NCBI GenBank assembly: GCA_036489885.1
Contig: DASXEW010000003.1
Span: 806,001 to 870,000, forward strand
Direction of reading: 5' to 3'
Origin: Candidatus Baltobacteraceae bacterium
Lineage (GTDB): Bacteria > Vulcanimicrobiota > Vulcanimicrobiia > Vulcanimicrobiales > Vulcanimicrobiaceae
DNA: 64,000 nt
Part shown: piece after piece, positions 4,081 to 31,287 of the stretch
Position numbering within the stretch: position 1 is the first letter of the stretch
Layout of the letters: every line of letters starts with the position of its first letter
Translations under genes and position numbers: made by a program
Notes under the pieces: generated by a model
Database searches by the model: none
Told to the model about the DNA's origin: nothing
What the model saw: only the letters and a program-made list of their open reading frames with translations

Positions 4081-4308
4081 CTACGGGGTCGTCGTGGTAG
4101 TGGTCGTCGTGCCCGCGGTCTTTTCATCGGATTGCTTCCGCGCTTCTTCACGAGCGCGTTCGGCAGCGACGTCGGCTTCAGCCTGACCGACCACGAATTC
4201 TTTTTTCGCGTTTCCGAGACTGCGCGCAAGCTTCGGCAACTTGTCGGCTCCGAAGAGCAGAACCGCCGCGCCGACTACGAGCGCAATCTCCATTGGACTC
4301 CCAAACAT
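4081..4308 (-). CDS. tatA: Sec-independent protein translocase TatA
   Basis: A 75-residue TatA/E-type pore subunit: a short N-terminal membrane helix (MEIALVVGAAVLLFG), the FG hinge, an amphipathic helix (ADKLPKLARSLGNAKKEF) and a charged, Ala/Glu/Lys-rich tail. The C-terminus ends in a run of eight threonines encoded by an (ACG/ACC/ACT)n tract, an odd low-complexity tail. The start ATG at 4308 has GGAGG with a rather long 11-base spacer. It is the first gene of tatA-tatC-resB-resC; the 170-base upstream gap is the likely promoter region. Confidence 0.93.
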   Translation of the reverse strand: MFGSPMEIALVVGAAVLLFGADKLPKLARSLGNAKKEFVVGQAEADVAAERAREEARKQSDEKTAGTTTTTTTTP

Positions 4309-4478
4309 GTTTTAAAAAACCTCCGGTTTCACGGCGCTTTCGGTCTTAAAGGGCGCTCCGCCCCCGGCTGCGCGCCCCCCACGCTTCGCGTGGGGCCCCC
4401 GAGCCGACCTCGCAACGACGCCGGTGTCACAGCACGATACCACTGTGCTCGGTCCATGACCATTACTCTAAAAGGGAT
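4309..4478. other. Intergenic gap upstream of tatA with strong GC palindrome
   Basis: The 170-base gap between the polyprenyl synthase gene and tatA contains no ORF. It holds a very GC-rich block (4350-4412) with an 8-bp perfect hairpin at 4377-4395. It should contain the tatA promoter, but I cannot pick convincing -35/-10 boxes. The block resembles a mobile or REP-type intergenic repeat, though only one copy is in this window. Confidence 0.5.
4377..4395. repeat. Perfect GC-rich hairpin in tatA upstream region
   Basis: CCCCACGC, a 3-base TTC loop and GCGTGGGG form an uninterrupted 8-bp stem inside a C- and G-rich block. No U-tract follows on either strand, so it is not a canonical rho-independent terminator. 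It may be a processing or stabilising hairpin, or the core of an interspersed repeat. Confidence 0.5.
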
Positions 4479-5459
4479 TTAAGAGTTCCGAGAAAGGCGA
4501 TCGGCGAGCGAGGCAAGCTGGTCGCGGGCGTCGTTTTGGTCGGTTCCCAAGCCGCCGAGGGCCAGCTTTGCCCGCTCGACATACGTGTGGATCGCGTCGT
4601 GGGTAGCCTCGAAGGCGCCGATGCGACCCATGCGCGCGATCAAGTCGGCAATCGCAGCGGACTCCGCCTGCTCGTCGACCTCCGCGTCGAAAAACTCCTC
4701 GACGCGCGCGCGAAACTCGGCGTCCCCCTTTTTCAGTGCACAGATGAGCGGAATCGTGACTTTCCGCTCGCGCAGGTCGTTGCCGACGGGTTTGCCGAGG
4801 GCCGCCTCGTCCGAGGTGACGTCAAGCAGATCGTCCATCATTTGGAACGCGATCCCGTAGTGAATGCCGAACTCGCGCAACGCGCGCACGCCCGCGCCCT
4901 GACCGCCGCAGATCGCACCGCACTCGGCCGACGCGCCGAATAGCGTCGCAGTCTTTTTTTCGACGATCTCGACGTAATCGTCGAACGGCAAATCCAAATT
5001 CCCCATCGCGCGCAGCTGGAGCACTTCGCCGTCGCAGATCGCCGCGAGCGTCGCGGAGAGAATGTGAGGAATCGGTGCATCGTAACCGGCGGTGACATTC
5101 TTGAAAATCCAGGCGAACAGGTAATCGCCGGCCAGGACGCTGATGCGATTGCCGAAGTCGACGGCAGTCGCGTTGACGCCGCGACGCGTCTGTGCGCCGT
5201 CGACGACGTCGTCGTGAATCAACGTCGCAACATGGATCAGCTCCATGTACGCCGCAAGCGCAAGATGGTCGGCCGCATTTCCGCCCATCGCTTCGGCCGC
5301 GAGCAACGTGATGCGCGGACGCAAGCGCTTTCCGCCGGCGGCCAGCATGCGACGCACTGCTTCCGTGATTAACGGATTGTCGGTTTGAAAACGGTGCCTG
5401 AAGAAATCCTCGACGAGCGCGTAGAGATCGCGCTCGCTCGCACTACGGGGTTCGATCAC
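4479..5459 (-). CDS. Trans polyprenyl diphosphate synthase (heptaprenyl/octaprenyl class)
   Basis: A 326-residue prenyltransferase with both aspartate-rich motifs: HDDVVD at residues 82-87 (first, FARM, with Arg-rich GAQTRRG after it) and MMDDLLD at 207-213 (second, SARM), plus GGKRLRPR near 42-49 and GNDLRERKVT after the SARM. It adds isopentenyl units in trans to an allylic diphosphate, giving the quinone side chain or an isoprenoid precursor. The residues before the FARM are not bulky aromatics, which suits a long-chain product. It overlaps the menG stop by 4 bases (ATGA), so menaquinone side-chain synthesis is the natural reading. Chain length cannot be fixed from sequence. Confidence 0.9.
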   Translation of the reverse strand: MIEPRSASERDLYALVEDFFRHRFQTDNPLITEAVRRMLAAGGKRLRPRITLLAAEAMGGNAADHLALAAYMELIHVATLIHDDVVDGAQTRRGVNATAVDFGNRISVLAGDYLFAWIFKNVTAGYDAPIPHILSATLAAICDGEVLQLRAMGNLDLPFDDYVEIVEKKTATLFGASAECGAICGGQGAGVRALREFGIHYGIAFQMMDDLLDVTSDEAALGKPVGNDLRERKVTIPLICALKKGDAEFRARVEEFFDAEVDEQAESAAIADLIARMGRIGAFEATHDAIHTYVERAKLALGGLGTDQNDARDQLASLADRLSRNS

Positions 5460-18919: not shown

Positions 18920-19512
18920 AATTTCCCAGAATAAGCCGCAAACGGTTCATCGTTCGTGCCGCTGTTCCAACGCTGGCGGCGAGCGCCGGAGTACGTCCCG
19001 ACTTCGCGCCGGCAGCCGAGCAGCCGCTGGAAGAGCGGGGCCCCGGCCCGATTCCCGTTAGCCTGAAAATCAACGGCGAGACACACACGCTCGCTCTCGA
19101 GCCGCGCGTCACGTTGCTCGATGCGCTGCGCGAACGCCTCGGATTGACCGGCACCAAGAAGGGCTGCGATCAAGGCACGTGCGGCGCGTGCACGGTCCTG
19201 GTCGACGGCCGCCGCGTCAACGCGTGCCTGACGCTCGCCGTGATGGCCGAGGGAAAAGCCGTTACGACGATCGAGGGTCTCGGCTCGCCGGAGTCGTTGC
19301 ATCCGATGCAGGCGGCGTTTCTTTCCAGCGACGGCTTCCAATGCGGCTATTGCACGCCGGGGCAGATTGTTTCTGCGGTCGGTCTCGTGTCTGAACGTCG
19401 CCCCACGAGCGACGATTCGTCGATTCGCATGTGGATGAGCGGCAACATCTGCCGCTGCGGCGCATATCCCAATATCGTTGACGCGATTCGCAAAGCGGGG
19501 CGTCACGCGTGA
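18916..19512 (+). CDS. paoA: [2Fe-2S] subunit of molybdenum aldehyde oxidoreductase (PaoA-like)
   Basis: The 198-residue protein has two [2Fe-2S] domains: ferredoxin-like Cys84, Cys89, Cys92, Cys104 (CDQGTCGACTVL...NACL) and the alpha-helical set Cys143, Cys146, Cys179, Cys181 (GYCTPGQ and NICRCGAY). It relays electrons from the Mo-cofactor to FAD. A 35-residue N-terminal extension (SRKRFIVRAAVPTLAASAG) looks like a twin-arginine-type signal with KR replacing one arginine, as expected for a periplasmic PaoABC-type enzyme; export is therefore likely but not certain. It starts with GTG and overlaps the monooxygenase stop (GTGA). Confidence 0.85.
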   Translation: MKFPRISRKRFIVRAAVPTLAASAGVRPDFAPAAEQPLEERGPGPIPVSLKINGETHTLALEPRVTLLDALRERLGLTGTKKGCDQGTCGACTVLVDGRRVNACLTLAVMAEGKAVTTIEGLGSPESLHPMQAAFLSSDGFQCGYCTPGQIVSAVGLVSERRPTSDDSSIRMWMSGNICRCGAYPNIVDAIRKAGRHA

Positions 19513-20495
19513 ATCTTTTCCGATTTGCGCGCGCCGGTACGGCCGGCGCTGCGATCGCGACGGTTGAGGGCGATCCGCGCGCTTCGTACATTGCAGGCGG
19601 AACGAATATCGTCGACCTGATGAAAGACGACGCGGTCATGCCGTCCCTGCTCGTCGACATCACGATGCTGCCATTCGCGCACATCGACGCCGATGATTCG
19701 ACCGTTCGCATCGGCGCGCTCTCGCGAATGAGCGATGTTGCAGACGCGAAAGCCGTGGTGCATGGCCTTCCCGCCGTCTCGCAAGCCTTGCTCGAGAGCG
19801 CATCACCGCAACTTCGCAATATGGCGACGATCGGCGGCAATATCATGCAGCGCACGCGCTGCGCATACTTCCGCGATGTCGCGACCGCGTGCAACAAGCG
19901 TTCCGACGGGACAGGGTGTTCGGCACTTGGAGGCGTCAATCGCATGCACGCAATCATGGGTGGCAGCGACCGCTGCATCTGCGTGCACGCCTCGGACCTC
20001 GCGGTTGCACTGGTCGCGTTCGACGCGATGCTGCACTTGCGTGGTTCGGCCGGTGAGCGGACGATGCCGCTATCTGATTTCTATCTGTTGCCGGGTTCGA
20101 CGCCCGCGCGCGAGACGGCGCTTGCGCACGGTGAGCTGATCGCCGCGGTCGAGGTTCCCCTCGCCGCGTACACCCGTAATTCGACATATTTGAAAGCGCG
20201 CGATCGCAGCCAGTACGAATTTGCGCTTGTGTCGGTGGCGGCGGGTCTCGACATCTCCGGCGGACAGATCCGCGCCGCACGGATTGCGCTCGGCGGCGTC
20301 GCGCCCGTCCCGTGGCGCGCGCGTGAAGCCGAACGCGCACTGCAAGGTCAAACTCCGTCGCGAGCCGTTTTCACTGCAGCCGCGCAGAGCGCGCTTCGCG
20401 GCGCGCGCGGTTACGGTCAAAATGACTACAAGATACCGCTCGCGCAGCGCGCGATCGTCCGCGCATTGCAAACGGTATCCGGGAGCGCCGCATGA
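19509..20495 (+). CDS. paoB: FAD/[4Fe-4S] subunit of molybdenum aldehyde oxidoreductase (PaoB-like)
   Basis: A 328-residue CoxM-family flavoprotein with the FAD-binding motifs AGGTN (29-33) and IGGN (108-111). Between them and the C-terminal domain lies a Cys-rich insert (Cys118, Cys128, Cys137, Cys156, Cys158; RCAYFRD, CNKR, GCSAL) that in E. coli PaoB holds an additional [4Fe-4S] cluster. That insert distinguishes the PaoABC class from ordinary CO dehydrogenase or xanthine dehydrogenase medium subunits. It starts with GTG in a GTGA overlap with paoA and its end overlaps paoC (ATGA). Confidence 0.87.
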   Translation: MNLFRFARAGTAGAAIATVEGDPRASYIAGGTNIVDLMKDDAVMPSLLVDITMLPFAHIDADDSTVRIGALSRMSDVADAKAVVHGLPAVSQALLESASPQLRNMATIGGNIMQRTRCAYFRDVATACNKRSDGTGCSALGGVNRMHAIMGGSDRCICVHASDLAVALVAFDAMLHLRGSAGERTMPLSDFYLLPGSTPARETALAHGELIAAVEVPLAAYTRNSTYLKARDRSQYEFALVSVAAGLDISGGQIRAARIALGGVAPVPWRAREAERALQGQTPSRAVFTAAAQSALRGARGYGQNDYKIPLAQRAIVRALQTVSGSAA

Positions 20496-22624
20496 GCAAA
20501 CTCGTCGGCGACCCCATCGCACGCGTCGACGGCGCGCTCAAGGTAACTGGCCGGGCGAAATACACGGCGGAAGTTCCGATCGCAGGTCTTACGTACGCGG
20601 TGATGGTGACGAGCACGATCGGCAACGGCAAGATCGTCTCGATCGATCAGTCGCAAGCACGCAAAGAACCTGGTGTGATCGTGATTCTGACGCACGGAAA
20701 TGCTCCGCGCGTTCACATTGCCGAGCCAAACGGACAAGCGCGCGTTTTGCGCGTGCTCCAGGATGACATCGTCTACTATGACCGCCAACCCGTCGCAGTT
20801 GTCGTAGCCGACACGTTTGAGCGCGCCACTCATGCCGCCTCTCTGCTGCGAATCGAGTATACGGCGCAACCCGTAGCAACGCGCATCGAAGCCGGAACTC
20901 CTTACGCGCCCAAAGCCATCCAAGGCCATGCGGCGGATTTGAAACGCGGCGACGCGGACACCGCCTTCGCGTCGGCCGCCGTCAAGCTCGATCGGACGTA
21001 TCGCACGCCGATCTATCATCATAATCCCATGGAACCACACGCGTCGACCGCGACATGGGATGGAGACAAGCTCACGGTCTACAACGCGTCGCAGGGCGTC
21101 GATGGTGACCGGCGTGTCTTGGCGAGCACGTTTGGACTTCCGGTTCAAAGCGTGCGCGTGATCTCGTCGTACATCGGCGGCGGTTTCGGCTGCAAGGGCA
21201 CGCCGTGGTCGCACGTCGTTCTGGCCGCGATGGCAGCGAAGGTTACGAATCGTCCGGTCAAGCTCGTTCTGACGCGACCGCAGATGTTCAGCTCGGTCGG
21301 ACACCGGCCGGAAACGATTCAACGTGTCGCATTGGGCGCCGACCGTAACGGCAAGATTGCGGCGCAAATCCACGAGGTCACGTCGCACACGTCAACGTTC
21401 GATGAGTTCACCGAGCCTTCGGGACGCTTTAGCGTCATGCTCTACAACGTTCCGAACTCGCGCATCACTCAGAGGCTCGTTCGCTTGAACACCGCGACGC
21501 CGACCTTTACACGAGCACCCGGCGAGACAAGCGGGTCCTTTGCGTTTGAATCGGCGATGGATGAGCTCGCGTACCAACTCGGGATCGATCCGCTCGAGCT
21601 GCGTTTGCGTAATTACGCGGAAACCGACCCGGATTCGCGATTGCCTTATTCGAGCAAATCGCTGCGTGCGTGCTACGAGCAAGGCGCCCAGCGCTTCGGT
21701 TGGAGCCGCCGCAATCCAAGAGTCCGCAGTATGCGCGACCGCAACCTGCTGGTCGGCATGGGCGTCGCGACCGCCGTCTATCCGTCAAATCGGAGCGAAG
21801 CCGGTGGACTCGTGCGCATCTTCCGTGACGGAACGGCGCTCGTGAACAGCGCGGGCGTCGACATCGGAACGGGTGCTTATACCGTGTTCACGCAGGTGGC
21901 TGCCGAAACGTTAGGATTCCCCGTCGAGCGTGTTCGGATCGGACTTGGCGATACGGCGATGCCCATCGCGCCGAATGCCGGCGGCTCGCAGCTGACGGCG
22001 AGCGTCGGGACCGCGATCAAGCTCGCGGCGGATGACGCGCGCACAAGGGTCGCGGCGCTCGGCAACGTCTCTCCGGATAGGTTGACGTCGCCGGAAGCCT
22101 ACGCGGCGATCTTGCGCAAGGCCGGCGTTGCGAGCGTTGACGGAACTTCGGATGCAAAGAAGCCGGATGATTCGCAGAAAAAATTCGCGACGCTCGCGTT
22201 TGGTGCGCACTTTGCGGAAGTGCATGTCGATCCGGATCTCGGCCAGGTGCGCGTCGCGCGCTTCGTCGGCGCGTTTGCATCCGGGCGCATCCTGAACGCG
22301 CAGACGGCGCGCAATCAATACATGGGCGGCATCGTGTGGGGCATCGGTAACGCGCTGACGGAGATCACGCGCACGGATTTGCGCAGCGGCCGCATCATGA
22401 CGGCAAACCTTGCCGAATATCTCGTTCCGACGAACGCCGACGTTCCGGCCATCGAGGTCGTAATCGTACCGGAGGAAGATCCGCACATCAATCCGATCGG
22501 CGTCAAAGGCATTGGTGAGATCGGCATCGTCGGCGCGGCACCCGCGATCGCAAACGCGGTCTATCACGCGACGGGTGTGCGTGTGCGCGAATTGCCGATT
22601 ACGCCCGACAAGCTATTGACCTAG
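20492..22624 (+). CDS. paoC: Molybdopterin-binding subunit of aldehyde oxidoreductase (PaoC-like)
   Basis: The 710-residue large subunit binds the Mo-cofactor and substrate. The N-terminal a/b-hammerhead domain (GDPIARVDGALKVTGRAKY) is followed by the Mo-binding core with GGGFGCKG near residue 229 and GGSQLTASVGTA near 500. The base catalyst is Glu676 in GVKGIGEIGIVGAAPA. Related enzymes oxidise aromatic and aliphatic aldehydes to acids with water as oxygen donor. Translation is coupled to the FAD subunit by an ATGA overlap. A dedicated chaperone (PaoD/XdhC) and cytosine-type cofactor genes are not in the window. Confidence 0.9.
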   Translation: MSKLVGDPIARVDGALKVTGRAKYTAEVPIAGLTYAVMVTSTIGNGKIVSIDQSQARKEPGVIVILTHGNAPRVHIAEPNGQARVLRVLQDDIVYYDRQPVAVVVADTFERATHAASLLRIEYTAQPVATRIEAGTPYAPKAIQGHAADLKRGDADTAFASAAVKLDRTYRTPIYHHNPMEPHASTATWDGDKLTVYNASQGVDGDRRVLASTFGLPVQSVRVISSYIGGGFGCKGTPWSHVVLAAMAAKVTNRPVKLVLTRPQMFSSVGHRPETIQRVALGADRNGKIAAQIHEVTSHTSTFDEFTEPSGRFSVMLYNVPNSRITQRLVRLNTATPTFTRAPGETSGSFAFESAMDELAYQLGIDPLELRLRNYAETDPDSRLPYSSKSLRACYEQGAQRFGWSRRNPRVRSMRDRNLLVGMGVATAVYPSNRSEAGGLVRIFRDGTALVNSAGVDIGTGAYTVFTQVAAETLGFPVERVRIGLGDTAMPIAPNAGGSQLTASVGTAIKLAADDARTRVAALGNVSPDRLTSPEAYAAILRKAGVASVDGTSDAKKPDDSQKKFATLAFGAHFAEVHVDPDLGQVRVARFVGAFASGRILNAQTARNQYMGGIVWGIGNALTEITRTDLRSGRIMTANLAEYLVPTNADVPAIEVVIVPEEDPHINPIGVKGIGEIGIVGAAPAIANAVYHATGVRVRELPITPDKLLT

Positions 22625-22644
22625 CTGCGCCGAAGCCGCAGGCC

Positions 22645-23808
22645 ATGCCGTTCTACGTTCGAGAGGGCAAGCTGCCCGCGCAGCGCCATACGCAGTTCCG
22701 CAAGCCAAACGGAGGATTGTATGCCGAAGAGCTGATCTCGACCAAAGGCTTCGAAAGCATCTACTCGCTCGCATACCATGTACGGCCACCGACCGCAACG
22801 CTCGACGTGCGCGCTTGGGAACGTCCGTTCGTGCGCTACATGCCCAACGATCCGCTCAAGAACCGTCACTGGTTCACGGCGCGCGTGAAAGCCGAAGGGG
22901 ACGCCGTCGAGGGCCGCGTCCCGCTCGCCGGCAACGACGACATTGTGATCTCGACTGCGACGGTCTCGAAACCGATGGACTATTTTTTCCGCAACGCCGG
23001 CGGCGACGAGCTGCTTTTCGTCCAAGCCGGCAACGGTGTTCTGGAATCGCCGCTGGGCGAAATCGCGTATCGCGCGCACGACTATCTCATCATCCCGTGC
23101 GGCGTTGCGTATCGTTTGCAGCCGGGCAACAAGACCGAGCTGTTCGTCGCCGAGTGTAGTGGGCCGATCGAGATCCCCTCAAAATTCCGGAATCCGTTCG
23201 GTCAGCTCAAAGAGCATGCACCATACTACGAACGCGATTTTCGCGCGCCGGTCTTACGCGAGCCGCACGACGAACAAGGTGAATTCGAAGTACGCATCAG
23301 TGCGCGCGGACGCACCGCGATTCACGTCGTCCAGAATCATCCTTTCGACGTCGTCGGCTGGGACGGATACTGCTATCCGGTCGCCTTCAATGCCGACGAC
23401 TATGCGCCCGTGACGGGCAAGCTGCATCAACCGCCGTCGACGCACGTCATTTTCGAAGCCGCCGGTGCAGCGTTTATTCTTTTCGCGCCACGGCTATTCG
23501 ACTATCATCCGCAAGCAGTCCCGGCTCCGTACAATCACGCTAGCGTCGATTGCGACGAGATCATCTACTATGCGAGCGGCAACTTTATGAGCCGCCGCGG
23601 CATCGAAGAGCGTTCGATCACGCTGCACGCAGCGGGCGCAATCCACGGTCCGCAACCGGGTGCAGTTGAAGCCTCGCTCGGAAAACAGGCGACGGACGAG
23701 CTGGCCGTTGCCGTCGATTGCTTTGCGCCGCTGCGAATCGCGGAGCCGGCGTTCTCAATCGAGGATGCCGGCTACTTCCGCTCGTGGGTCGCGGTTTCGA
23801 AACCGTAG
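22645..23808 (+). CDS. hmgA: Homogentisate 1,2-dioxygenase
   Basis: A 387-residue double cupin of the short bacterial homogentisate dioxygenase type. The C-terminal metal region reads DYHPQAVPAPYNHASVDC, then DEIIYYASGNF and IHGPQPG, matching the His/Glu/His iron site. The N-terminal HTQFRKPNGG and VRYMPNDPL are also typical. It opens the ring of homogentisate to maleylacetoacetate in tyrosine, phenylalanine and 4-hydroxyphenylacetate breakdown. It follows paoC by 20 bases and ends 1 base from the convergent amidase gene. Maleylacetoacetate isomerase is not adjacent; an FAH-family hydrolase is encoded at 39168. Confidence 0.9.
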   Translation: MPFYVREGKLPAQRHTQFRKPNGGLYAEELISTKGFESIYSLAYHVRPPTATLDVRAWERPFVRYMPNDPLKNRHWFTARVKAEGDAVEGRVPLAGNDDIVISTATVSKPMDYFFRNAGGDELLFVQAGNGVLESPLGEIAYRAHDYLIIPCGVAYRLQPGNKTELFVAECSGPIEIPSKFRNPFGQLKEHAPYYERDFRAPVLREPHDEQGEFEVRISARGRTAIHVVQNHPFDVVGWDGYCYPVAFNADDYAPVTGKLHQPPSTHVIFEAAGAAFILFAPRLFDYHPQAVPAPYNHASVDCDEIIYYASGNFMSRRGIEERSITLHAAGAIHGPQPGAVEASLGKQATDELAVAVDCFAPLRIAEPAFSIEDAGYFRSWVAVSKP

Positions 23809-23809
23809 C

Positions 23810-25096
23810 CTACGTCAGAATCCTGTAGATCGAGTCCGCAATCCCAAACAGCGCTTCGTCGTTGCTGCGTCGCGCGATGATTTGTGCGCCGATCGGTAAA
23901 TTTGAGGGCCCACGAAACACCGGTATCGTGACGACGGGGACCTGAAGAGCCGTCCACATTCCGCAGAGCGATGAATTTCCGGTGTCGCCGAAGCCGACGG
24001 GAGCTTCGCCTACGACGGGCGACGTGAGCAAGACGTCGTAGTCGTTAAAGATCGCATCGAGCATCCCGCGCGTTTGCTCGACGTGAAGCTTCGCTTGCGA
24101 ATAGCGCTCGAACGTGCAGCTTAGGCCGTTCTTGAGTCGTCCTTTCCGCAACGTCTCGCTAATCTGATCCCAGTGATTCTCGATCTCCCAGGTGTAGTTG
24201 CGTGTAAACTCATAGCTGGAGATCCATTTGTGCGCTTCTTCCATCTCGTTGAATGCTGTGGGAAGCGTGACGTCGCGCACGTCGATACCTGCCTGCTGCA
24301 ACCGAAGCACAGCCTCCTCGAACAGCGCGCGCGTCGAGGGCTCGACCTCGTCCCATTTGTGCGTTCGGCAAAAAGCGATGCGAGGCTTGAGTACTTTACT
24401 TAACTCGCTTTCACGCTCACGTCCGAGCAGCGCATCTCGATAACGCGAAATGTCCTCGACCGATCGCGCATAAATACCGAGTGTGTCAAGGGACCAAGCG
24501 GATTGTTTGACGCCGGAACAGGTGAGCGTGCCAAACGTCGGGCGATAAGCGAACACTCCGCAAAACGAACCGGGTTTAATGGTCGAACCTGTCGTTTGCG
24601 TTCCGAGGGCGACGGGAACCATCATGTCGGCCACAGCCGCGGCCGAGCCACTCGATGAGCCGCCTGACGTTCGGGCAGGGTCAAGTGGATGCCGCGTTCG
24701 TGCCGGGTGACGATTCGCGAATTCCGTCGTGACCGTCTTACCTAGGAGGACGGCATCTGCCTTACGGCTCAGTGCGACGCACGCTGCGTCCGTTTTCGGC
24801 TGATGGCCGGCGTAGATCGGTGAACCGTATTGGCTCGGGATATCCGCGGTATCGATGATGTCCTTTACGCCGAACGGGACTCCCGAAAGAATGCCGCGTG
24901 CTCCGCGGACGTCGAGAGATCGCGCAGTCCGCATAACAGCCTCGCGATCGATGTATTCCCAAGCTTGCACCGCATCTTCACGTTCATCGATTCGCTCGAT
25001 ACAGGCTCGTGCTATCGATTCGCAGGTGACCTCGCCGCGACGTACGGCTCGAACGATGTCGGATGCGGTCAGCTCATTGAGGCGAATGCTCAGCAT
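23810..25096 (-). CDS. Amidase (amidase signature family)
   Basis: A 428-residue serine amidase with the Ser-cisSer-Lys triad: Lys78 in GVKD, cis-Ser147 in SGGSSSGSAAA and nucleophile Ser171 in TGSTIKPG. The family hydrolyses amides in the cytosol; GatA, hydantoin- and allophanate-related enzymes and many catabolic amidases share this fold. It is the last gene of the minus-strand tctB-tctA-selenoprotein-352aa-tctC-amidase run and starts 1 base after tctC stops, so it probably acts on the imported substrate or a later intermediate. It converges with hmgA with a single base between stops. Confidence 0.9.
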   Translation of the reverse strand: MLSIRLNELTASDIVRAVRRGEVTCESIARACIERIDEREDAVQAWEYIDREAVMRTARSLDVRGARGILSGVPFGVKDIIDTADIPSQYGSPIYAGHQPKTDAACVALSRKADAVLLGKTVTTEFANRHPARTRHPLDPARTSGGSSSGSAAAVADMMVPVALGTQTTGSTIKPGSFCGVFAYRPTFGTLTCSGVKQSAWSLDTLGIYARSVEDISRYRDALLGRERESELSKVLKPRIAFCRTHKWDEVEPSTRALFEEAVLRLQQAGIDVRDVTLPTAFNEMEEAHKWISSYEFTRNYTWEIENHWDQISETLRKGRLKNGLSCTFERYSQAKLHVEQTRGMLDAIFNDYDVLLTSPVVGEAPVGFGDTGNSSLCGMWTALQVPVVTIPVFRGPSNLPIGAQIIARRSNDEALFGIADSIYRILT

Positions 25097-25097
25097 G

Positions 25098-26081
25098 CTA
25101 GCTCAGTGGAATGTTCGCGGCCTTGGCGACTTTCGCCCATTTTGCGACGTCGTTTCGTACAAACTCCGCGAAGCTTTGCGGCGAGCCCCCAACCGGAATC
25201 AAGATGGCGTCGCGCAGAGGTCCCTCGAGATCAGGAGCGCGCAGGGCTTTGGTGAAAATTGCGTTGAGCGAATCGACGGCGGCCTTTGGCGTCTTTGCGG
25301 GCGCGACGATTCCGTACCACTGATTCACATCGAAGCCCGGGACGCCCGATTCGGCGACCGTCGGCACATCCGGTAACGATTTGAGCCGCTCCGTGCTTGA
25401 TACCGCGAGCGCTTTGAGCTTGCCGGATTTTACGTAGGGCAGAATGGCGGGAGCCGGTGCCATGACGATCGCGACATCACCACGCAATGCTCCGAGGATC
25501 GCGGCGGCGGTGCCGTTGTACGGTACGTTCATGAGATTGATTCCGGTATCGCTGGCGAGCAGCTCAACGCCGAGACGCAGCGGGCCGCCTTGATCGCTCG
25601 AATAGTTGATTTTTCCGGGCGACGCCTTCGCAAGCGCTTCCAAGTCCCTCAGCGTCTTGGCCGGGAACGAAGGATTGAGCGCGATGATGTTCGGCGTGCG
25701 TGCGAGATACGCGACCGGTGCAAAATCGCTAATAACGTTGAACGGAAGGCTTTTGTAAATGCTTTCGCTGATCGTCCAGTTTGCTGTCGCAAGCAAAACG
25801 GTATATCCGTCCGGATTGGCTCGTGCGACCAATTCCGCGCCGATATTTCCGTTCGCTCCACCGTGATTCTCGATTACGAAGTCCTGACCGGCGATCTGGC
25901 TTACCTTCGGGCCGATGATGCGCGCCATCGCGTCCGCACCGCCGCCGGGCGGGAAGGGAACGATGAGGCGAACAGGGCCGCTCGGAAAGGAATCTGCATA
26001 TGCTGGTGATGCCACGATGAGGGATGCTGCGCCGCCGATAAGACCTAAAGCGGTGCTTCGGTTCAATCGCTTCTCGGACAT
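25098..26081 (-). CDS. tctC: Tripartite tricarboxylate transporter substrate-binding protein (TctC/Bug family)
   Basis: The 327-residue protein has a Sec-type signal peptide (STALGLIGGAASLIVASPAYA, about 8-29) and the Bug signatures PVRLIVPFPPGGGADAMAR and ENHGGANGNIGAE near 36-85. Bug proteins bind carboxylates, amides or similar small solutes in the periplasm and deliver them to TctA/TctB. Here tctA and tctB lie upstream, separated from tctC by the selenoprotein and the 352-residue gene. The ligand is unknown. Confidence 0.92.
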   Translation of the reverse strand: MSEKRLNRSTALGLIGGAASLIVASPAYADSFPSGPVRLIVPFPPGGGADAMARIIGPKVSQIAGQDFVIENHGGANGNIGAELVARANPDGYTVLLATANWTISESIYKSLPFNVISDFAPVAYLARTPNIIALNPSFPAKTLRDLEALAKASPGKINYSSDQGGPLRLGVELLASDTGINLMNVPYNGTAAAILGALRGDVAIVMAPAPAILPYVKSGKLKALAVSSTERLKSLPDVPTVAESGVPGFDVNQWYGIVAPAKTPKAAVDSLNAIFTKALRAPDLEGPLRDAILIPVGGSPQSFAEFVRNDVAKWAKVAKAANIPLS

Positions 26082-26107: not shown

Positions 26108-27166
26108 TTAGTGTGTCTGTGCGATGACCTTTGTAACGGGGACATGGGGAATCTGCTCGTGCGAAAATCCGGGAAGATACACGGTATGAATTCCCGTTCC
26201 ACCTAGGACGCCGAGATAAATATCCTCGGGTGTATCAACCAGCGACACCTTGCCGTCTTTGATCCGTCCCTTCTTTTCCAAGAACGGGATGTCGCTACTA
26301 CGGAAGAACGACGTCGGTAACAGCGTGTACTCGTAGATCATCTCTTTCGCTTTCGTCTTAGAGATGCCGGCGTCAGCCAAGAGCTGCACGCGTTCCGGAT
26401 TGAAGAGCAAGACGGCGGACAAGCTTCCTGCGTAAAGTGCGGTGTTACCCAACGAGACCATTGAGAGCGCAGTGTGCTGCAAGAGACCTTCAGGTGATTG
26501 ATCCCAATCCAGCGGTGCGAGAAGCCCGATGTACGACGTCACGCGAAAGACGGAGATCGTGCTTTGGTCGGCCTTGAACCCGCGCTCGACGTGGAATGGT
26601 TCCCAGGCTGAACTTTCTTCGTCTTCGCCCGTGCAGAACGTGTATTGGAGGGGCGACGCGAAGCACGTGCGAGCGTAGCCTCCCGGTGAAAAGCCGCCGA
26701 TGTTGATCATCACGAGCCGCATGGCCCGTCCGATCGTCGCATTCGAGCGCCATCCCGGTCCAAGCGCCCCGCGTGCGCAGTTGAGATCGATCTCCTTGCG
26801 CACCGGTCCGTTGATCATGAAGAAAGGCGTTTCGGGGCGAAGACCGACTAGCGTTCCGAGCGGAAAAAGCGGATCAGCAATCGCTTCCACGGCCGCAACG
26901 ACCGTCGGAAAATACTCCGGCAAACATCCTGCCATCACCGCGTTTGCTGCGATGCCACGCACCGTGCACGGACCTTTACGCGGCGGCATGATGTAAAAAA
27001 CCTCGTCCGGATCCCGGTCAACGGTCGCCAGGAAGCGTTCGATACGGTCGGCTGTCGGTGGTATTACCGGGAGGCCGTCGGTCCAATGGTTGTCGACGGC
27101 GTATTGAAAGAAATCCTCATACGGATTTTCCGCGGAGCTAACCGGTACGTCGACCGTTTTGGTCAC
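26108..27166 (-). CDS. Unrecognised 352-residue protein translationally coupled to the selenoprotein
   Basis: I do not recognise a family with certainty. The protein has no signal peptide or clear membrane helix. Notable segments are ENPYEDFFQYAVDNHWTDG at the N-terminus, GLPVIPPT, a Cys pair region (GPCTVRGIAANAVMAGCLPE), NGPVRKEIDLNCARGALG, and the Gly-rich NIGGFSPGGYARTCFASPLQ, followed by an acidic CTGEDEESSAWEPFHVERGF. Conserved-looking cysteines near residues 65, 80, 130, 165 and 175 would suit redox partnership with a selenol. It starts with GTG whose last two bases are the first two of the selenoprotein TGA stop (GTGA), so the pair is probably made together in fixed ratio. Confidence 0.8.
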   Translation of the reverse strand: MTKTVDVPVSSAENPYEDFFQYAVDNHWTDGLPVIPPTADRIERFLATVDRDPDEVFYIMPPRKGPCTVRGIAANAVMAGCLPEYFPTVVAAVEAIADPLFPLGTLVGLRPETPFFMINGPVRKEIDLNCARGALGPGWRSNATIGRAMRLVMINIGGFSPGGYARTCFASPLQYTFCTGEDEESSAWEPFHVERGFKADQSTISVFRVTSYIGLLAPLDWDQSPEGLLQHTALSMVSLGNTALYAGSLSAVLLFNPERVQLLADAGISKTKAKEMIYEYTLLPTSFFRSSDIPFLEKKGRIKDGKVSLVDTPEDIYLGVLGGTGIHTVYLPGFSHEQIPHVPVTKVIAQTH

Positions 27167-27729
27167 TTTTGCGCCTCGAACGACGCGACCAATTCCGGCA
27201 GAAGCGTATCGATACGCTCGTGGATTCCCGGATCATCGAGGTAGATTACCGGGTTGGCCGTTACGAGCACCGGGATGTGCGGATATCCCAGCGAGGTTAG
27301 TAGTTGGTGGGCTCTTGTCTCAAAGACATCCGTGACGATGACCGTCGCGGGGATGCCCCTCTTTTCGAACTCGACACATGCGTGGCAACTCCACAGCGTG
27401 CATCCGCCTCAATCGGCGACACCGGATGTCATCAAATCTATGCCGTGTGCGAGCTGATCGATCTCCGGACCAATCTTGGCAACACGCTCGGGATGCGTGA
27501 ACTGCCAATCAGGATTATGGAATATCGCTTCCTTCACATCGGTATCCGAGTTGAGACGCTTTGCAAACGCCTCCATAAAGGGCGGTGATATTGCCTTCCA
27601 GTTAGGCAGGCAAATCACGGTTTTTCCCTTGATGCTGGCAGGCCGTTTCGGCGGCATCGCAGCTGGAGTCTGAACGAGATCTTGATAGTCTGCGACGGGA
27701 ACGACGACGCTCAACGTATTCATGGCCAT
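27163..27729 (-). CDS. UGSC-family selenoprotein (Sec107 encoded by in-frame UGA)
   Basis: Read through the UGA at 27411-27409, this is one 188-residue protein; read as a stop, it is truncated to 106 residues and the well-conserved second half has no start. Around the UGA the protein reads SGVAD-Sec-GGCTLWSCHAC, then EKRGIPATVIVTDVF and LGYPHIPVLVTANP. This is the layout of the UGSC selenoprotein family (Sec-Gly-Ser-Cys; here Sec-Gly-Gly-Cys), whose selenol and Cys three residues later form a CxxC-like redox motif. A SECIS hairpin follows the UGA. The start at 27729 is chosen for AAAGG 8 bases upstream; ATG at 27723 is an alternative. The molecular reaction is unknown; Cys homologues are described as redox-type proteins. 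selA, selB, selC and selD are not in the window and must be elsewhere. Confidence 0.93.
27373..27411 (-). promoter_or_regulatory. Bacterial SECIS element (UGA plus hairpin)
   Basis: Counting the U of UGA (27411) as 1: GAUGCACGC (positions 8-16) pairs with GCAUGUGUC (31-39) with one C-A mismatch and two G-U wobbles; U17 is bulged; GUGG (18-21) pairs with CCAC (27-30); the loop is AGUUG with G23 and U24. In E. coli fdhF the SelB-binding determinants are bulged U17 and loop G23-U24, the same positions. The hairpin lies wholly in the coding sequence, as in bacteria. Confidence 0.92.
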
Positions 27730-27815: not shown

Positions 27816-27835
27816 CCCTGACTGTCGGTTCAGGG
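27816..27835 (-). other. Inverted repeat at the tctA 3' end
   Basis: CCCTGA (27816-27821) and TCAGGG (27830-27835) can form a 6-bp stem with an 8-base loop overlapping the tctA stop, in the 100-base gap before the selenoprotein gene. No U-run follows on the minus strand, so it may set mRNA stability rather than terminate; the genes downstream are probably still co-transcribed. Confidence 0.35.
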
Positions 27836-29341
27836 AAAGATCTGTGATCGACGGCGTTGCGCATCACGAACCGCTACGAAGATTTGCGAGACGATGAGCG
27901 CGGCGCACAAAATCACAAAGCATTCGCTAATCGGATGCTGCAAGAATATTCGAAGATCGCCGTGCGAAAGCAGCAACGCACGGCGTCCGTTCTCTTCGAC
28001 GAGCGGGCCGAGAATATAACCGAGTAAAATCGGCGCTGGCGGAAAATCGAGTGCTAACAAGATTGCGCCGGCGATCCCGAAAAATAGCAACTCGTATACG
28101 TTAAATAACGAATTGTTCGTCGTGTACACGCCGACACACATGAAGAACAACGCGGAAGGGAACATGAAGCGGTAGGGTACCTGAAGCAGCTTCACCCACA
28201 CGCGAATCAACGGTATATTGAGCACCACCAGCAAGATGTTGCCGATCCAAAAGCTCGCTACGAGTCCCCAAAAAATGTCGGCGTGGTCGGTAATGAGCTG
28301 GGGGCCGGGCTGAATACCTTGGATTAGCAGCGCGCCGAGGATAAGCGCCATCACGGCATCGCCTGGAATCCCCAGCGTCATCGTCGGGATGAAGTCCACC
28401 TGCGTCTTCGAGTGTGCCGCAGCTTCCGGTGCGGCTACGCCTTCAATTGCGCCGCTTCCGAAGCGTTCGGGCGTGCGTGAGATACGGCGCTCCACCGAAT
28501 ATGCCACAAAAGTTGTGATATCAGGGCCTGTTCCGGGCATCGCACCGAACATCGTCCCGATCAATGTGCCTCGGAGCATTGGTAAGAATGCTTGTTTTAA
28601 CTCCGCGAGCGACGGCCGGAGATCGCGCAACCGAACCGCGACTCTAGAGGCGGAAACAACCGTTCGATTTATGCCTCTTAGAAAATTACCGATTCCGAAC
28701 AATCCGAGCGCCAGCGCGACGAGGTCGGCGCGGTCGCTGAGATCGATGAAGCCGAAGGTAAATCGCTGCGTTCCGCTATTGATGTCCGTGCCGATCAGAC
28801 CGATGATCATGCCGAGGATCGTCATCGCGATTCCTTTGAGCGGGGATTTGCCTGCCATCGTCCCGCCGGTGAGAAGACCGAACATCATGATCGAAAAGAT
28901 TTCCGCCGGCCCGAACTTGTACGCGAGCTTCACGAGAAGCGGTGATGCAAAAATCATGACCGTGATGCCGGCCGACGCTGCAAAAAATGAAGAGATGACC
29001 GCGATTCCGAGAGCCTTTCCGCCCTTGCCGTTCCTGGTCATCTGATATCCATCGATGCAAGTTACCGCGTGCGCAGCGTGCGATGGAATGTTTAGCAGAA
29101 TTGCTCCGATCGCACCGCCGTATTGGGATCCGTAGAAAATGCCGGCCAGCATCAGTATTGCCGGTACGGCGTGCATCGTGTGGGTGAGCGGCAGCAAGAG
29201 GGACATCGCGGAGAGCGCGCCCATACCGGGCAAAACGCCGATCAAGTTGCCCATCAGGACGCCAAAAAGCGACCAGACTAGATTATGTGGTTCGAGTGCG
29301 ACACTAAACCCGTAGAGCAGATCGGTGAGGGCTTGGTGCAT
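27830..29341 (-). CDS. tctA: Tripartite tricarboxylate transporter large permease TctA
   Basis: The 503-residue protein has about 11-12 membrane segments and the TctA signatures GVLPGMGALSAMSLLLPLT and ILLNIPSHAAHAVTCIDGYQM near the N-terminus, and PGTGPDITTF plus TMTLGIPGDAVMALILGAL in the middle. It is the main channel of the TTT secondary transporter, driven by the proton or sodium gradient. tctB is 6 bases upstream; tctC is three genes downstream. The set is complete, so a functional importer is expected. Confidence 0.93.
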   Translation of the reverse strand: MHQALTDLLYGFSVALEPHNLVWSLFGVLMGNLIGVLPGMGALSAMSLLLPLTHTMHAVPAILMLAGIFYGSQYGGAIGAILLNIPSHAAHAVTCIDGYQMTRNGKGGKALGIAVISSFFAASAGITVMIFASPLLVKLAYKFGPAEIFSIMMFGLLTGGTMAGKSPLKGIAMTILGMIIGLIGTDINSGTQRFTFGFIDLSDRADLVALALGLFGIGNFLRGINRTVVSASRVAVRLRDLRPSLAELKQAFLPMLRGTLIGTMFGAMPGTGPDITTFVAYSVERRISRTPERFGSGAIEGVAAPEAAAHSKTQVDFIPTMTLGIPGDAVMALILGALLIQGIQPGPQLITDHADIFWGLVASFWIGNILLVVLNIPLIRVWVKLLQVPYRFMFPSALFFMCVGVYTTNNSLFNVYELLFFGIAGAILLALDFPPAPILLGYILGPLVEENGRRALLLSHGDLRIFLQHPISECFVILCAALIVSQIFVAVRDAQRRRSQIFP

Positions 29342-29347
29342 TGTCGC

Positions 29348-29809
29348 CTACTGCCAACTGAAAAGCGGGAACTCGACCTTCAATGCAACGGCGAAGAGAA
29401 GTATGCAAACGACGACGATCGCCAGCGCGAGGAGGAGTGCATCCTTGAGCGTGTTCTGACGATCGCCGAGTGCGGAAATCAGGACGACCGAAAAGCTGCC
29501 GCCCGCAAGTCCAAGATGCTTTCCGACGATCGCGAAGGCGAGGACGCCGCCGATAATTGCGATCCAGCCGCGCCATTCCGGGCGTTCCATCGTTCCGGGT
29601 GACGTACGCGTACGCAGCCCATTGATCGCAATTGCGGCACCGACGAGCGCAAGCGCGACTCCAAGAGTCACGGGAAAGAAGCCGGGCCCCATGATCTCGA
29701 GCGTTCCGACTTGATACGAAGTGCCTTGATAAGCAGCCCCGGTGCCGATCAAAAACATAAGCGCGCCGCCGATGATATCAGTCGTGCCCCTTGTTCTCAA
29801 GGCTTGCAT
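29348..29809 (-). CDS. tctB: Tripartite tricarboxylate transporter small permease TctB
   Basis: A 153-residue membrane protein with four hydrophobic segments (about 12-28, 38-60, 78-98, 118-145) and the TctB-like PGFFPVTLGVALALVG. It is the small membrane subunit of the TTT importer. ATG at 29809 is preferred over a frame extension to 29896 because it begins just before the first membrane helix and the extension would overlap the divergent hydantoinase start region. The ribosome-binding site is weak. The start regions of tctB and the hydantoinase gene are only 47 bases apart. Confidence 0.85.
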   Translation of the reverse strand: MQALRTRGTTDIIGGALMFLIGTGAAYQGTSYQVGTLEIMGPGFFPVTLGVALALVGAAIAINGLRTRTSPGTMERPEWRGWIAIIGGVLAFAIVGKHLGLAGGSFSVVLISALGDRQNTLKDALLLALAIVVVCILLFAVALKVEFPLFSWQ

Positions 29810-29856
29810 CCAAGTATGATTCAGGCTGCGCTGAGCCTCTCCTCGGGAGAAATGTT

Positions 29857-31287
29857 GTGCTTGACCTGATCGTACGCAGCGATACAGTCGTGACACCAGG
29901 CGGAGTCGGTGACTACGAAGTCGCCATACACCAGGAAAAAATTGTTGCAGTTGGCGCGCGTGGCACGTTTAGAAATGATCAAGCGCATGCCGTGATCGAG
30001 GCAACCGGCAAAATCGTCATCCCCGGTGGAATCGATCCGCACATCCACTGCAAGTGGGGCACACCGGTAGGGACGGTCAGCGCGGGATCAGAGGTCGTCA
30101 GCCGAGCGGCACTTTACGGTGGTACCACAACGATTATTGATTTCGCCGTTTGGGATGAGGGGCTAACGCTACAGGACGCGATCGAACGAAGAGAGGGTGA
30201 CTTTCGCGGGCAGTGCCATTGCGACTATGCCTTTCACGTCACGCTTCACGGTGCCGTTCCCGAGAACGTCATCGCACAAATTCCGGAAACAATTAGCGCG
30301 GGATATCCTACTATAAAGATCTACACGACGGACGTCCGGCCGGCGCGTAAGAACTGGAAGCTGCACTTCGGTGACATCTGGGAAGTGCTTCAGCAGCTCG
30401 CCGGCAATGGTGGCCTCGCGTGCATCCATTCCGAAGACGACGATCTCGTCATGCATATGTACAAGAAGCTCTTTGCGCAAGGGCGCGGCCATTTCTCCAA
30501 TATGGCTGAAGTGCACAGCGCGCTCTCCGAAGATTTGTCCTTCCGGCGCGTGATACGGCTTGCCGAAAATGTGGAAGGCGCCGCGCTCTATCTCATGCAC
30601 GTCAGCGCAGCCGCGGGCGTGAATGCGATCGAGGAATCGCGGGCTAAAGGGTTTCCAATATATGGGGAGACGCTCCACCAATTCGCCCTATTCACGAGTG
30701 AGGATTACAAGCGTCCGAACGGACAGATCTATCACACGTATCCGTCTCTTAAGACAGGTGCGGATCAAGTAGCGCTCTGGGACGCGATAACGAGGTCGGG
30801 AGCGCTTAGTACGATGTCGACCGACGGCGTGTGCACGCCCTATTCGGTGAAGATTGCGCGCGAACAAATTGACGACACGACCGGAGGTAATGTCGGTGTC
30901 GAACCGCGCGTAAGCGTCGTCTACACCGAGATGGTTACGAAACGAAAATGTACGCTTGAGCATTTCGTCGACGTGATCGCAGCGAATGCAGCGCGCATAA
31001 TGGGGCTTTATCCTCGCAAGGGGGCTATCACGGCCGGGAGCGACGCGGATATAACGATTCTAGATCCGCGTTCCTCGCGAAAGATTCAGAAAGAGAACCT
31101 CCACGAATCGGACTACACACCGTGGGAAGGTTACGAAACAGCGGTCTGGCCTTCAACGACGATCCTGCGTGGAAAAAGAGTCGTCGAAGACGCTGTGTTC
31201 TTGGGTACGCCGGGCGGCGGCCAGAACGTGCCGCGTAAGATTGCGTCCGATATTCTATCCGGAGCCGCCTTGAGCCGTAAAACCTAG
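29857..31287 (+). CDS. Hydantoinase/dihydropyrimidinase-family cyclic amidohydrolase
   Basis: A 476-residue TIM-barrel amidohydrolase with the complete binuclear metal set: His62 and His64 (DPHIHCKWG), carbamylated Lys154 (PTIKIYTTD), His191 (ACIHSEDD), His248 (LMHVSA) and Asp323 (STDGV). Such enzymes open five- or six-membered cyclic ureides or imides (hydantoins, dihydropyrimidines). GTG at 29857 is preferred: GGGAG lies about 7 bases before it and the protein then starts at the normal point. Transcribed divergently from the TTT/selenoprotein operon, whose amidase could act on its product. Its end overlaps the next minus-strand gene by 4 bases. Confidence 0.9.
   Translation: MLDLIVRSDTVVTPGGVGDYEVAIHQEKIVAVGARGTFRNDQAHAVIEATGKIVIPGGIDPHIHCKWGTPVGTVSAGSEVVSRAALYGGTTTIIDFAVWDEGLTLQDAIERREGDFRGQCHCDYAFHVTLHGAVPENVIAQIPETISAGYPTIKIYTTDVRPARKNWKLHFGDIWEVLQQLAGNGGLACIHSEDDDLVMHMYKKLFAQGRGHFSNMAEVHSALSEDLSFRRVIRLAENVEGAALYLMHVSAAAGVNAIEESRAKGFPIYGETLHQFALFTSEDYKRPNGQIYHTYPSLKTGADQVALWDAITRSGALSTMSTDGVCTPYSVKIAREQIDDTTGGNVGVEPRVSVVYTEMVTKRKCTLEHFVDVIAANAARIMGLYPRKGAITAGSDADITILDPRSSRKIQKENLHESDYTPWEGYETAVWPSTTILRGKRVVEDAVFLGTPGGGQNVPRKIASDILSGAALSRKT

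Follow-up and report, generated by a model that had tools for sequence, protein, structure and literature searches.

The analysed window is a stretch of 64,000 nucleotides from the genome of a Candidatus Baltobacteraceae bacterium (host genome; 3.48 Mb, 96% complete). Within the window, the genes tctB-tctA-UGSC-partner-tctC-amidase likely form an operon, where 'partner' refers to the gene that directly overlaps the end of the UGSC gene. The respective features are (window positions):

23810..25096, minus strand: amidase, at the end of the likely operon (PF01425, E 2e-66)
25098..26081, minus strand: TctC, the transporter's substrate-binding protein (PF03401, E 4e-67)
26108..27166, minus strand: partner gene, 352 aa, with a GTGA start overlapping the UGSC stop; no Pfam, NCBIfam or PDB match
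27163..27729, minus strand: predicted UGSC-family selenoprotein gene, 188 codons, Sec at codon 107
27381..27395, minus strand: core of a SECIS-like hairpin, UGUGG-AGUUG-CCACG, 16-30 nt after the UGA and in register with 89 relatives
27409..27411, minus strand: UGA read as selenocysteine 107 based on alignments, site counts and sel genes; motif Sec-Gly-Gly-Cys with the putative resolving Cys110
27830..29341, minus strand: TctA, large membrane subunit of a tripartite tricarboxylate transporter (PF01970, E 9e-141)
29348..29896, minus strand: TctB, small membrane subunit, start uncertain (PF07331, E 4e-17)
29791..31287, plus strand: dihydropyrimidinase/hydantoinase-like gene (profile matches), divergent from the operon; its true start is probably inside the frame

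The divergent hydantoinase-like gene is a possible pathway neighbour of the operon. Its identification as ErtD of the ergothioneine pathway was rejected, given 180 bits vs. a cut-off of 600. Positions 19509-23808 of the window hold genes for molybdenum hydroxylase subunits and, after them, a divergent cupin gene of homogentisate-dioxygenase-like type.

When 27729-27163 (minus strand) is translated with TGA as U, we obtain 106 residues, Sec107 and 81 further residues up to a TGA stop, which overlaps the GTG start (27166) of the downstream gene as GTGA. This confirms what a sequence-only reading had described, i.e., an in-frame UGA at 27411-27409, 81 more codons and the GTGA junction. The truncation it expected from standard gene callers is reproduced as well: under the standard code the frame terminates at 27409, which leaves 106 codons from ATG 27729 (152 from GTG 27867). 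The frame shows no further stop or frameshift, and conserved residues are found on either side of the UGA.

Next, we considered the family assignment. The Pfam UGSC model (PF24696) provides a single unbroken match for residues 24-184, i.e., across the UGA (E 9e-29, 101.2 bits; curated gathering cut-off 25 bits), in line with the UGSC membership already suggested from the sequence. The NCBIfam UGSC equivalog NF041046 yields 76.5 bits and thus stays below its curated cut-off of 125 bits, such that we consider the gene a divergent UGSC member and place it in the broader Pfam family. Its highest identity to any compared member is 30%, and it resides on a very long branch of the tree (2.04 changes per site). 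The nearest kin are two Betaproteobacteria copies (support 100/98), for which the partner and then TctC follow downstream of UGSC. Sec107, Gly108 and Cys110 are invariant in the alignments, and the window gene carries the [Sec/Cys]-Gly-x-Cys motif, whose third residue varies among UGSC relatives (S, A, G, N). The nearly invariant His159 is replaced by Asn.

Among 88 relatives from many phyla with a readable site, 86 show Sec and 2 show Cys at position 107, i.e., the homologues carry the residues the sequence-only reading had named for this position. The respective motif counts, which leave out five partial or atypical matches, are UGSC 68, UGAC 9, UGGC 8, UGNC 1 and CGSC 2. The Sec-Gly-Gly-Cys of the window, taken as a UGSC pattern from the beginning, is therefore an ordinary variant (8/88).

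The search for sel genes that had been proposed reveals a complete Sec-insertion machinery in the host genome: selA and selB are adjacent (C3:937562-940774), a Sec-type selD is encoded at C3:303143-304069 and a tRNA-Sec with anticodon UCA at C3:963841. The selD gene has an in-frame TGA of its own, that is, the host's selenophosphate synthetase is itself a selenoprotein. Two additional host UGSC genes (C3:1260267 and C1:495285) show the TGA at the same place. The third host UGSC locus (L215) is near a molybdenum hydroxylase cluster. The host also encodes a separate selenoprotein, namely a PrdB/GrdB-like protein with in-frame UGA (LLTGA-Sec-PMC; C3:1240946-1241350, minus strand); the second UGSC gene is about 19 kb away. 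Within the phylum, UGSC is present in 18/149 genomes. There, 26/29 UGSC places have one in-frame TGA; of the other three, one covers only the part before Sec and two, from two genomes of one genus, are free of TGA.

Furthermore, nearly all of the 89 relatives show a hairpin with an AGU-type loop 14-32 nt 3' of the UGA in one common register. Over 90 sequences, on average 6.9 of 8 pairs are formed vs. 4.7 expected from a random choice of synonymous codons, with above-expectation pairing for 88/90 sequences. Shifting the register reduces the number of pairs to 1.3-3.9, and two positions occur both as G-C and as C-G. All five core pairs are formed by the window's hairpin (UGUGG/CCACG, one U-G), which also shows the AGU loop. 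Taken alone, however, it does not surpass synonymous shuffles, and its folding z-score is only about -1. That is, the hairpin is a strong family-wide signal that is not significant for the window sequence alone. When the window was scanned with Rfam, no match reached the gathering thresholds.

We read the UGA as Sec because the Pfam match crosses it, the sel genes are present, Sec outnumbers Cys by 86 vs. 2 among the relatives and the hairpin is in register. Judged by these comparisons, it is virtually certain that the gene encodes a UGSC-family protein with its UGA at the family-wide Sec site. A true stop followed by a decayed remnant, or a sequencing error, could be suspected from the long branch and the Asn for His159, but is extremely improbable given the intact frame with residues conserved on both sides, the full sel system and a UGA common to two paralogues and tens of relatives; the sequencing error that the sequence-only reading had named as a possible refutation cannot account for such a shared UGA.

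The sequence-only reading also deemed the gene's partners noteworthy. This holds specifically for the overlapping downstream gene, which is found beside UGSC nearly everywhere. The partner family (352 aa), without sequence match in Pfam, NCBIfam or PDB, shows the invariant blocks DGLPxxPPT, NAVMAGC and GR; Cys81, Asn142, Arg147 and Glu181 are invariant and Cys178 is present in 52/57 sequences. Scanning one genome per species, we identified at least 581 relatives, from which 79 loci were kept; 69 of these 79 contain UGSC. Of 104 partner genes, 92 are within 1.2 kb of a same-strand UGSC gene (84 of them within 300 nt), and several of the remaining 12 sit at contig ends. UGSC comes first in 67 of the 92 pairs and the partner in 25. 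In addition, single-ORF UGSC-partner fusions are found in Variovorax, Sporomusa and Vibrio, and partner-UGSC-partner triads in haloarchaea. Based on these gene arrangements, UGSC and partner almost certainly constitute a conserved two-gene module. The swapped order, the fusions and the triads argue for a physical complex of both proteins, and we infer that they form one enzyme.

Several loci deviate from a simple pair. On two haloarchaeal plasmids (L149:6321-8966 and L155:6337-8966), one Cys-type UGSC is located between two partner genes. One Chloroflexi genome has three tandem UGSC-partner pairs (L059:8338-13726), and two further loci (L064 and L114) also show several pairs, suggesting substrate diversification. 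L064 furthermore holds a UGSC paralogue with a CDQGVT active site (4161-4694) that lacks Sec yet adjoins a partner gene. Four Poribacteria loci (L084, L116, L120, L127) have partner genes of about 310 aa with no UGSC nearby. Finally, the fusions on the Sporomusa and Vibrio plasmids (L146:7377-9101 and L152:7374-9059) have DMGT/S in place of Sec-x-x-Cys and adjoin aconitase X and DUF126; they are possibly a non-redox offshoot.

Beyond the pair, we looked for a conserved neighbourhood and found none: neighbours vary, with TctC being the most common. Recurring are TctC, TRAP and peptide-type binding proteins, CoA transferases, LLM flavoproteins, MmgE/PrpD and amidohydrolases. The binding proteins together with the CoA transferases, MmgE/PrpD and amidohydrolases point to small-acid metabolism.

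We also studied potential electron sources. A thioredoxin-reductase-type gene adjoins the pair or is part of its cluster on plasmids of Arthrobacter (trxB-trxA-partner-UGSC, plasmid annotation), Roseovarius (partner-UGSC-trxB), Variovorax SRS16, V. boronicumulans, Haloterrigena and Neorhizobium. Among the genome loci, such a gene is upstream of UGSC in three Alphaproteobacteria loci (L072, L117 and L122) and nearby in L066. All nine close cases as well as L066 show the CxxC motif. By a rough estimate, chance would place such a gene somewhere in the whole stretch for about 1-2% of loci. A local thioredoxin reductase is absent from most UGSC-partner loci.

For UGSC, the AlphaFold2 model (pLDDT 92, pTM 0.84) alternates between strand and helix in five units, and Sec107 is positioned where the helix after strand 3 begins. 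The predicted fold is thus doubly wound alpha/beta and not the beta-alpha-beta-alpha-beta-beta-alpha order of thioredoxin. Foldseek with this model reports generic flavodoxin-like folds only (query-normalised TM up to about 0.5), and no thioredoxin is among the best matches listed. This bears on the view of a 2008 metagenome survey, in which UGSC would be a thiol oxidoreductase or peroxidase of thioredoxin fold with a general role in redox housekeeping. The UxxC motif is compatible with this view, and PMC2398784 classes UGSC as likely Trx-like. We consider it rather improbable, since the confident model has a different strand-helix order and since a substrate-specific enzyme better fits the changing catabolic neighbours, the numerous paralogues within a genome and the partner that stays the same.

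PDB sequence searches with the UGSC and partner profiles returned nothing credible. Profile-profile comparison relates UGSC to PrdB-like proteins (86.5% probability, E 4.6e-6 for one comparison; profile of 17 sequences, one from the host, C3:1240946) and to GrdB (67.8%; profile of 3 sequences), in both cases with Sec aligned on Sec, where all values refer to single pairwise comparisons over about 100-140 columns and are no database E-values. The control comparisons gave 9.3% for GrdE and 0.1% for class I fumarase. HMMER finds no match between UGSC and PF07355 (GrdB/PrdB) at E up to 10. Since the likeness is seen at the HMM-HMM level only, we say that UGSC may work like GrdB/PrdB, not that it is one.

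The partner model is confident, too (pLDDT 91.5). Its profile reaches about 0.3% or less against each of PrdB, GrdB, GrdE and fumarase. Its weak Foldseek matches to class I fumarase alpha and Toblerone folds (query-normalised TM below 0.3; fumarase profile probability 0.3%) were not taken as a family assignment, and kinship to the pyruvoyl subunit GrdE/PrdA (PF09338; 0.1% vs. the GrdE profile, no Pfam match) was rejected.

Given the Sec site in common with GrdB/PrdB, the conserved Cys at the third position after it and the thioredoxin reductases linked to the pair, the best reading for UGSC is a GrdB/PrdB-like reduction. In this scheme, a small carboxylate would enter via TctABC and bind mainly to the partner protein. 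The selenolate of Sec107 would attack the substrate, and Cys110 would resolve the intermediate, leaving a selenenyl-sulfide. The latter would be reset by a thioredoxin-type dithiol that is fed by NADPH via thioredoxin reductase; a housekeeping enzyme would serve loci without a local one. Overall, the substrate would undergo reduction by two electrons or reductive cleavage, as for the GrdB/PrdB subunits of glycine/D-proline reductase, with the unrelated partner standing in for the pyruvoyl subunit. Since the partner is unrelated to GrdE/PrdA, the substrate-activation step of glycine/proline reductase is left unaccounted for. The neighbouring amidase and hydantoinase hint at an amide- or ureide-containing acid as substrate.

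Of the individual parts, a dithiol-linked reductase is probable, while a GrdB/PrdB-like reductive bond cleavage has slightly less than an even chance. The overall picture, i.e., a selenoenzyme linked to thioredoxin whose substrate, an imported carboxylate held by the partner, is reduced or reductively cleaved, could be right or wrong with about equal odds. Counter to the reductase reading, the distant fused relatives in Sporomusa and Vibrio lack both Sec and Cys. They keep both domains with DMGT/S beside aconitase X, which speaks for a pair without redox chemistry, i.e., a lyase, isomerase or hydrolase that consumes no electrons and uses Sec as a covalent nucleophile or to bind a metal. Lyase-type genes recur near the pair, and among PDB folds the partner comes closest, if weakly, to class I fumarase alpha subunits. 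We nevertheless regard such a pair as unlikely: the UxxC pair is kept in all but a few Sec/Cys forms, CxxC thioredoxin-reductase genes recur adjoining the pair, and neither profile (0.3%) nor fold (TM below 0.3) relates the partner to fumarase.

The literature searched gives the UGSC family a name and an abundance, but we found no function for it there. It accounts for 8.2% of selenoprotein genes (PMC9402790), and a 2026 review lists it among the largely uncharacterised families (PMC13188914). PMC2398784 mentions a UGSC/Unknown_1 fusion, in which UGSC is joined to a conserved domain of unknown function. In the literature searched, we found no description of a constant UGSC partner, unless it is this fused Unknown_1 domain. 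While the window gene is a new, divergent member of a long-named family, what is new here is UGSC as half of a two-gene module with an unnamed partner family. With the constant partner, the GrdB/PrdB link and thioredoxin reductase as candidate electron source, this orphan family can now be tested as an enzyme of two proteins, and the Cys versions (Roseovarius, including THAF8, Arthrobacter, including ERGS1:01, Variovorax, haloarchaea) permit tests without Sec insertion. The pair may serve an undescribed selenium-dependent process, as the sequence-only reading had supposed. More tentatively, it could represent a third Sec-dependent branch of reductive cleavage beside glycine and D-proline reductase, spread over many phyla and with a Cys form in haloarchaea, which would use a non-pyruvoyl activating subunit and tie each paralogue to its own carboxylate uptake.

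Compared to the UGSC family (PF24696; NF041046), the window gene agrees in length, Sec-x-x-Cys, the match across the UGA, hairpin position and the adjoining partner. It differs from typical members in its UGGC motif, the NF041046 score below cut-off, an identity of at most 30% and Asn for His159. In contrast to PrdB, the Sec subunit of D-proline reductase (PF07355), UGSC has no HMMER match to PF07355, its partner is not PrdA and many hosts are outside the amino-acid-fermenting anaerobes. In both, a hydrophobic strand precedes Sec-x-x-Cys, and a helix and E..GIPT come after it; both are also accompanied by genes that encode a second subunit and supply reductant. Unlike GrdB (glycine reductase protein B), UGSC is without the long N-terminal region, has no adjoining GrdE, GrdA or GrdC, and its partner is unrelated to GrdE. 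Still, its Sec-Gly-Gly/Ser-Cys aligns with the Sec-Gly-Thr-Cys of GrdB and the following E..GIP, and GrdB systems use the thioredoxin-linked chemistry that we propose for UGSC.
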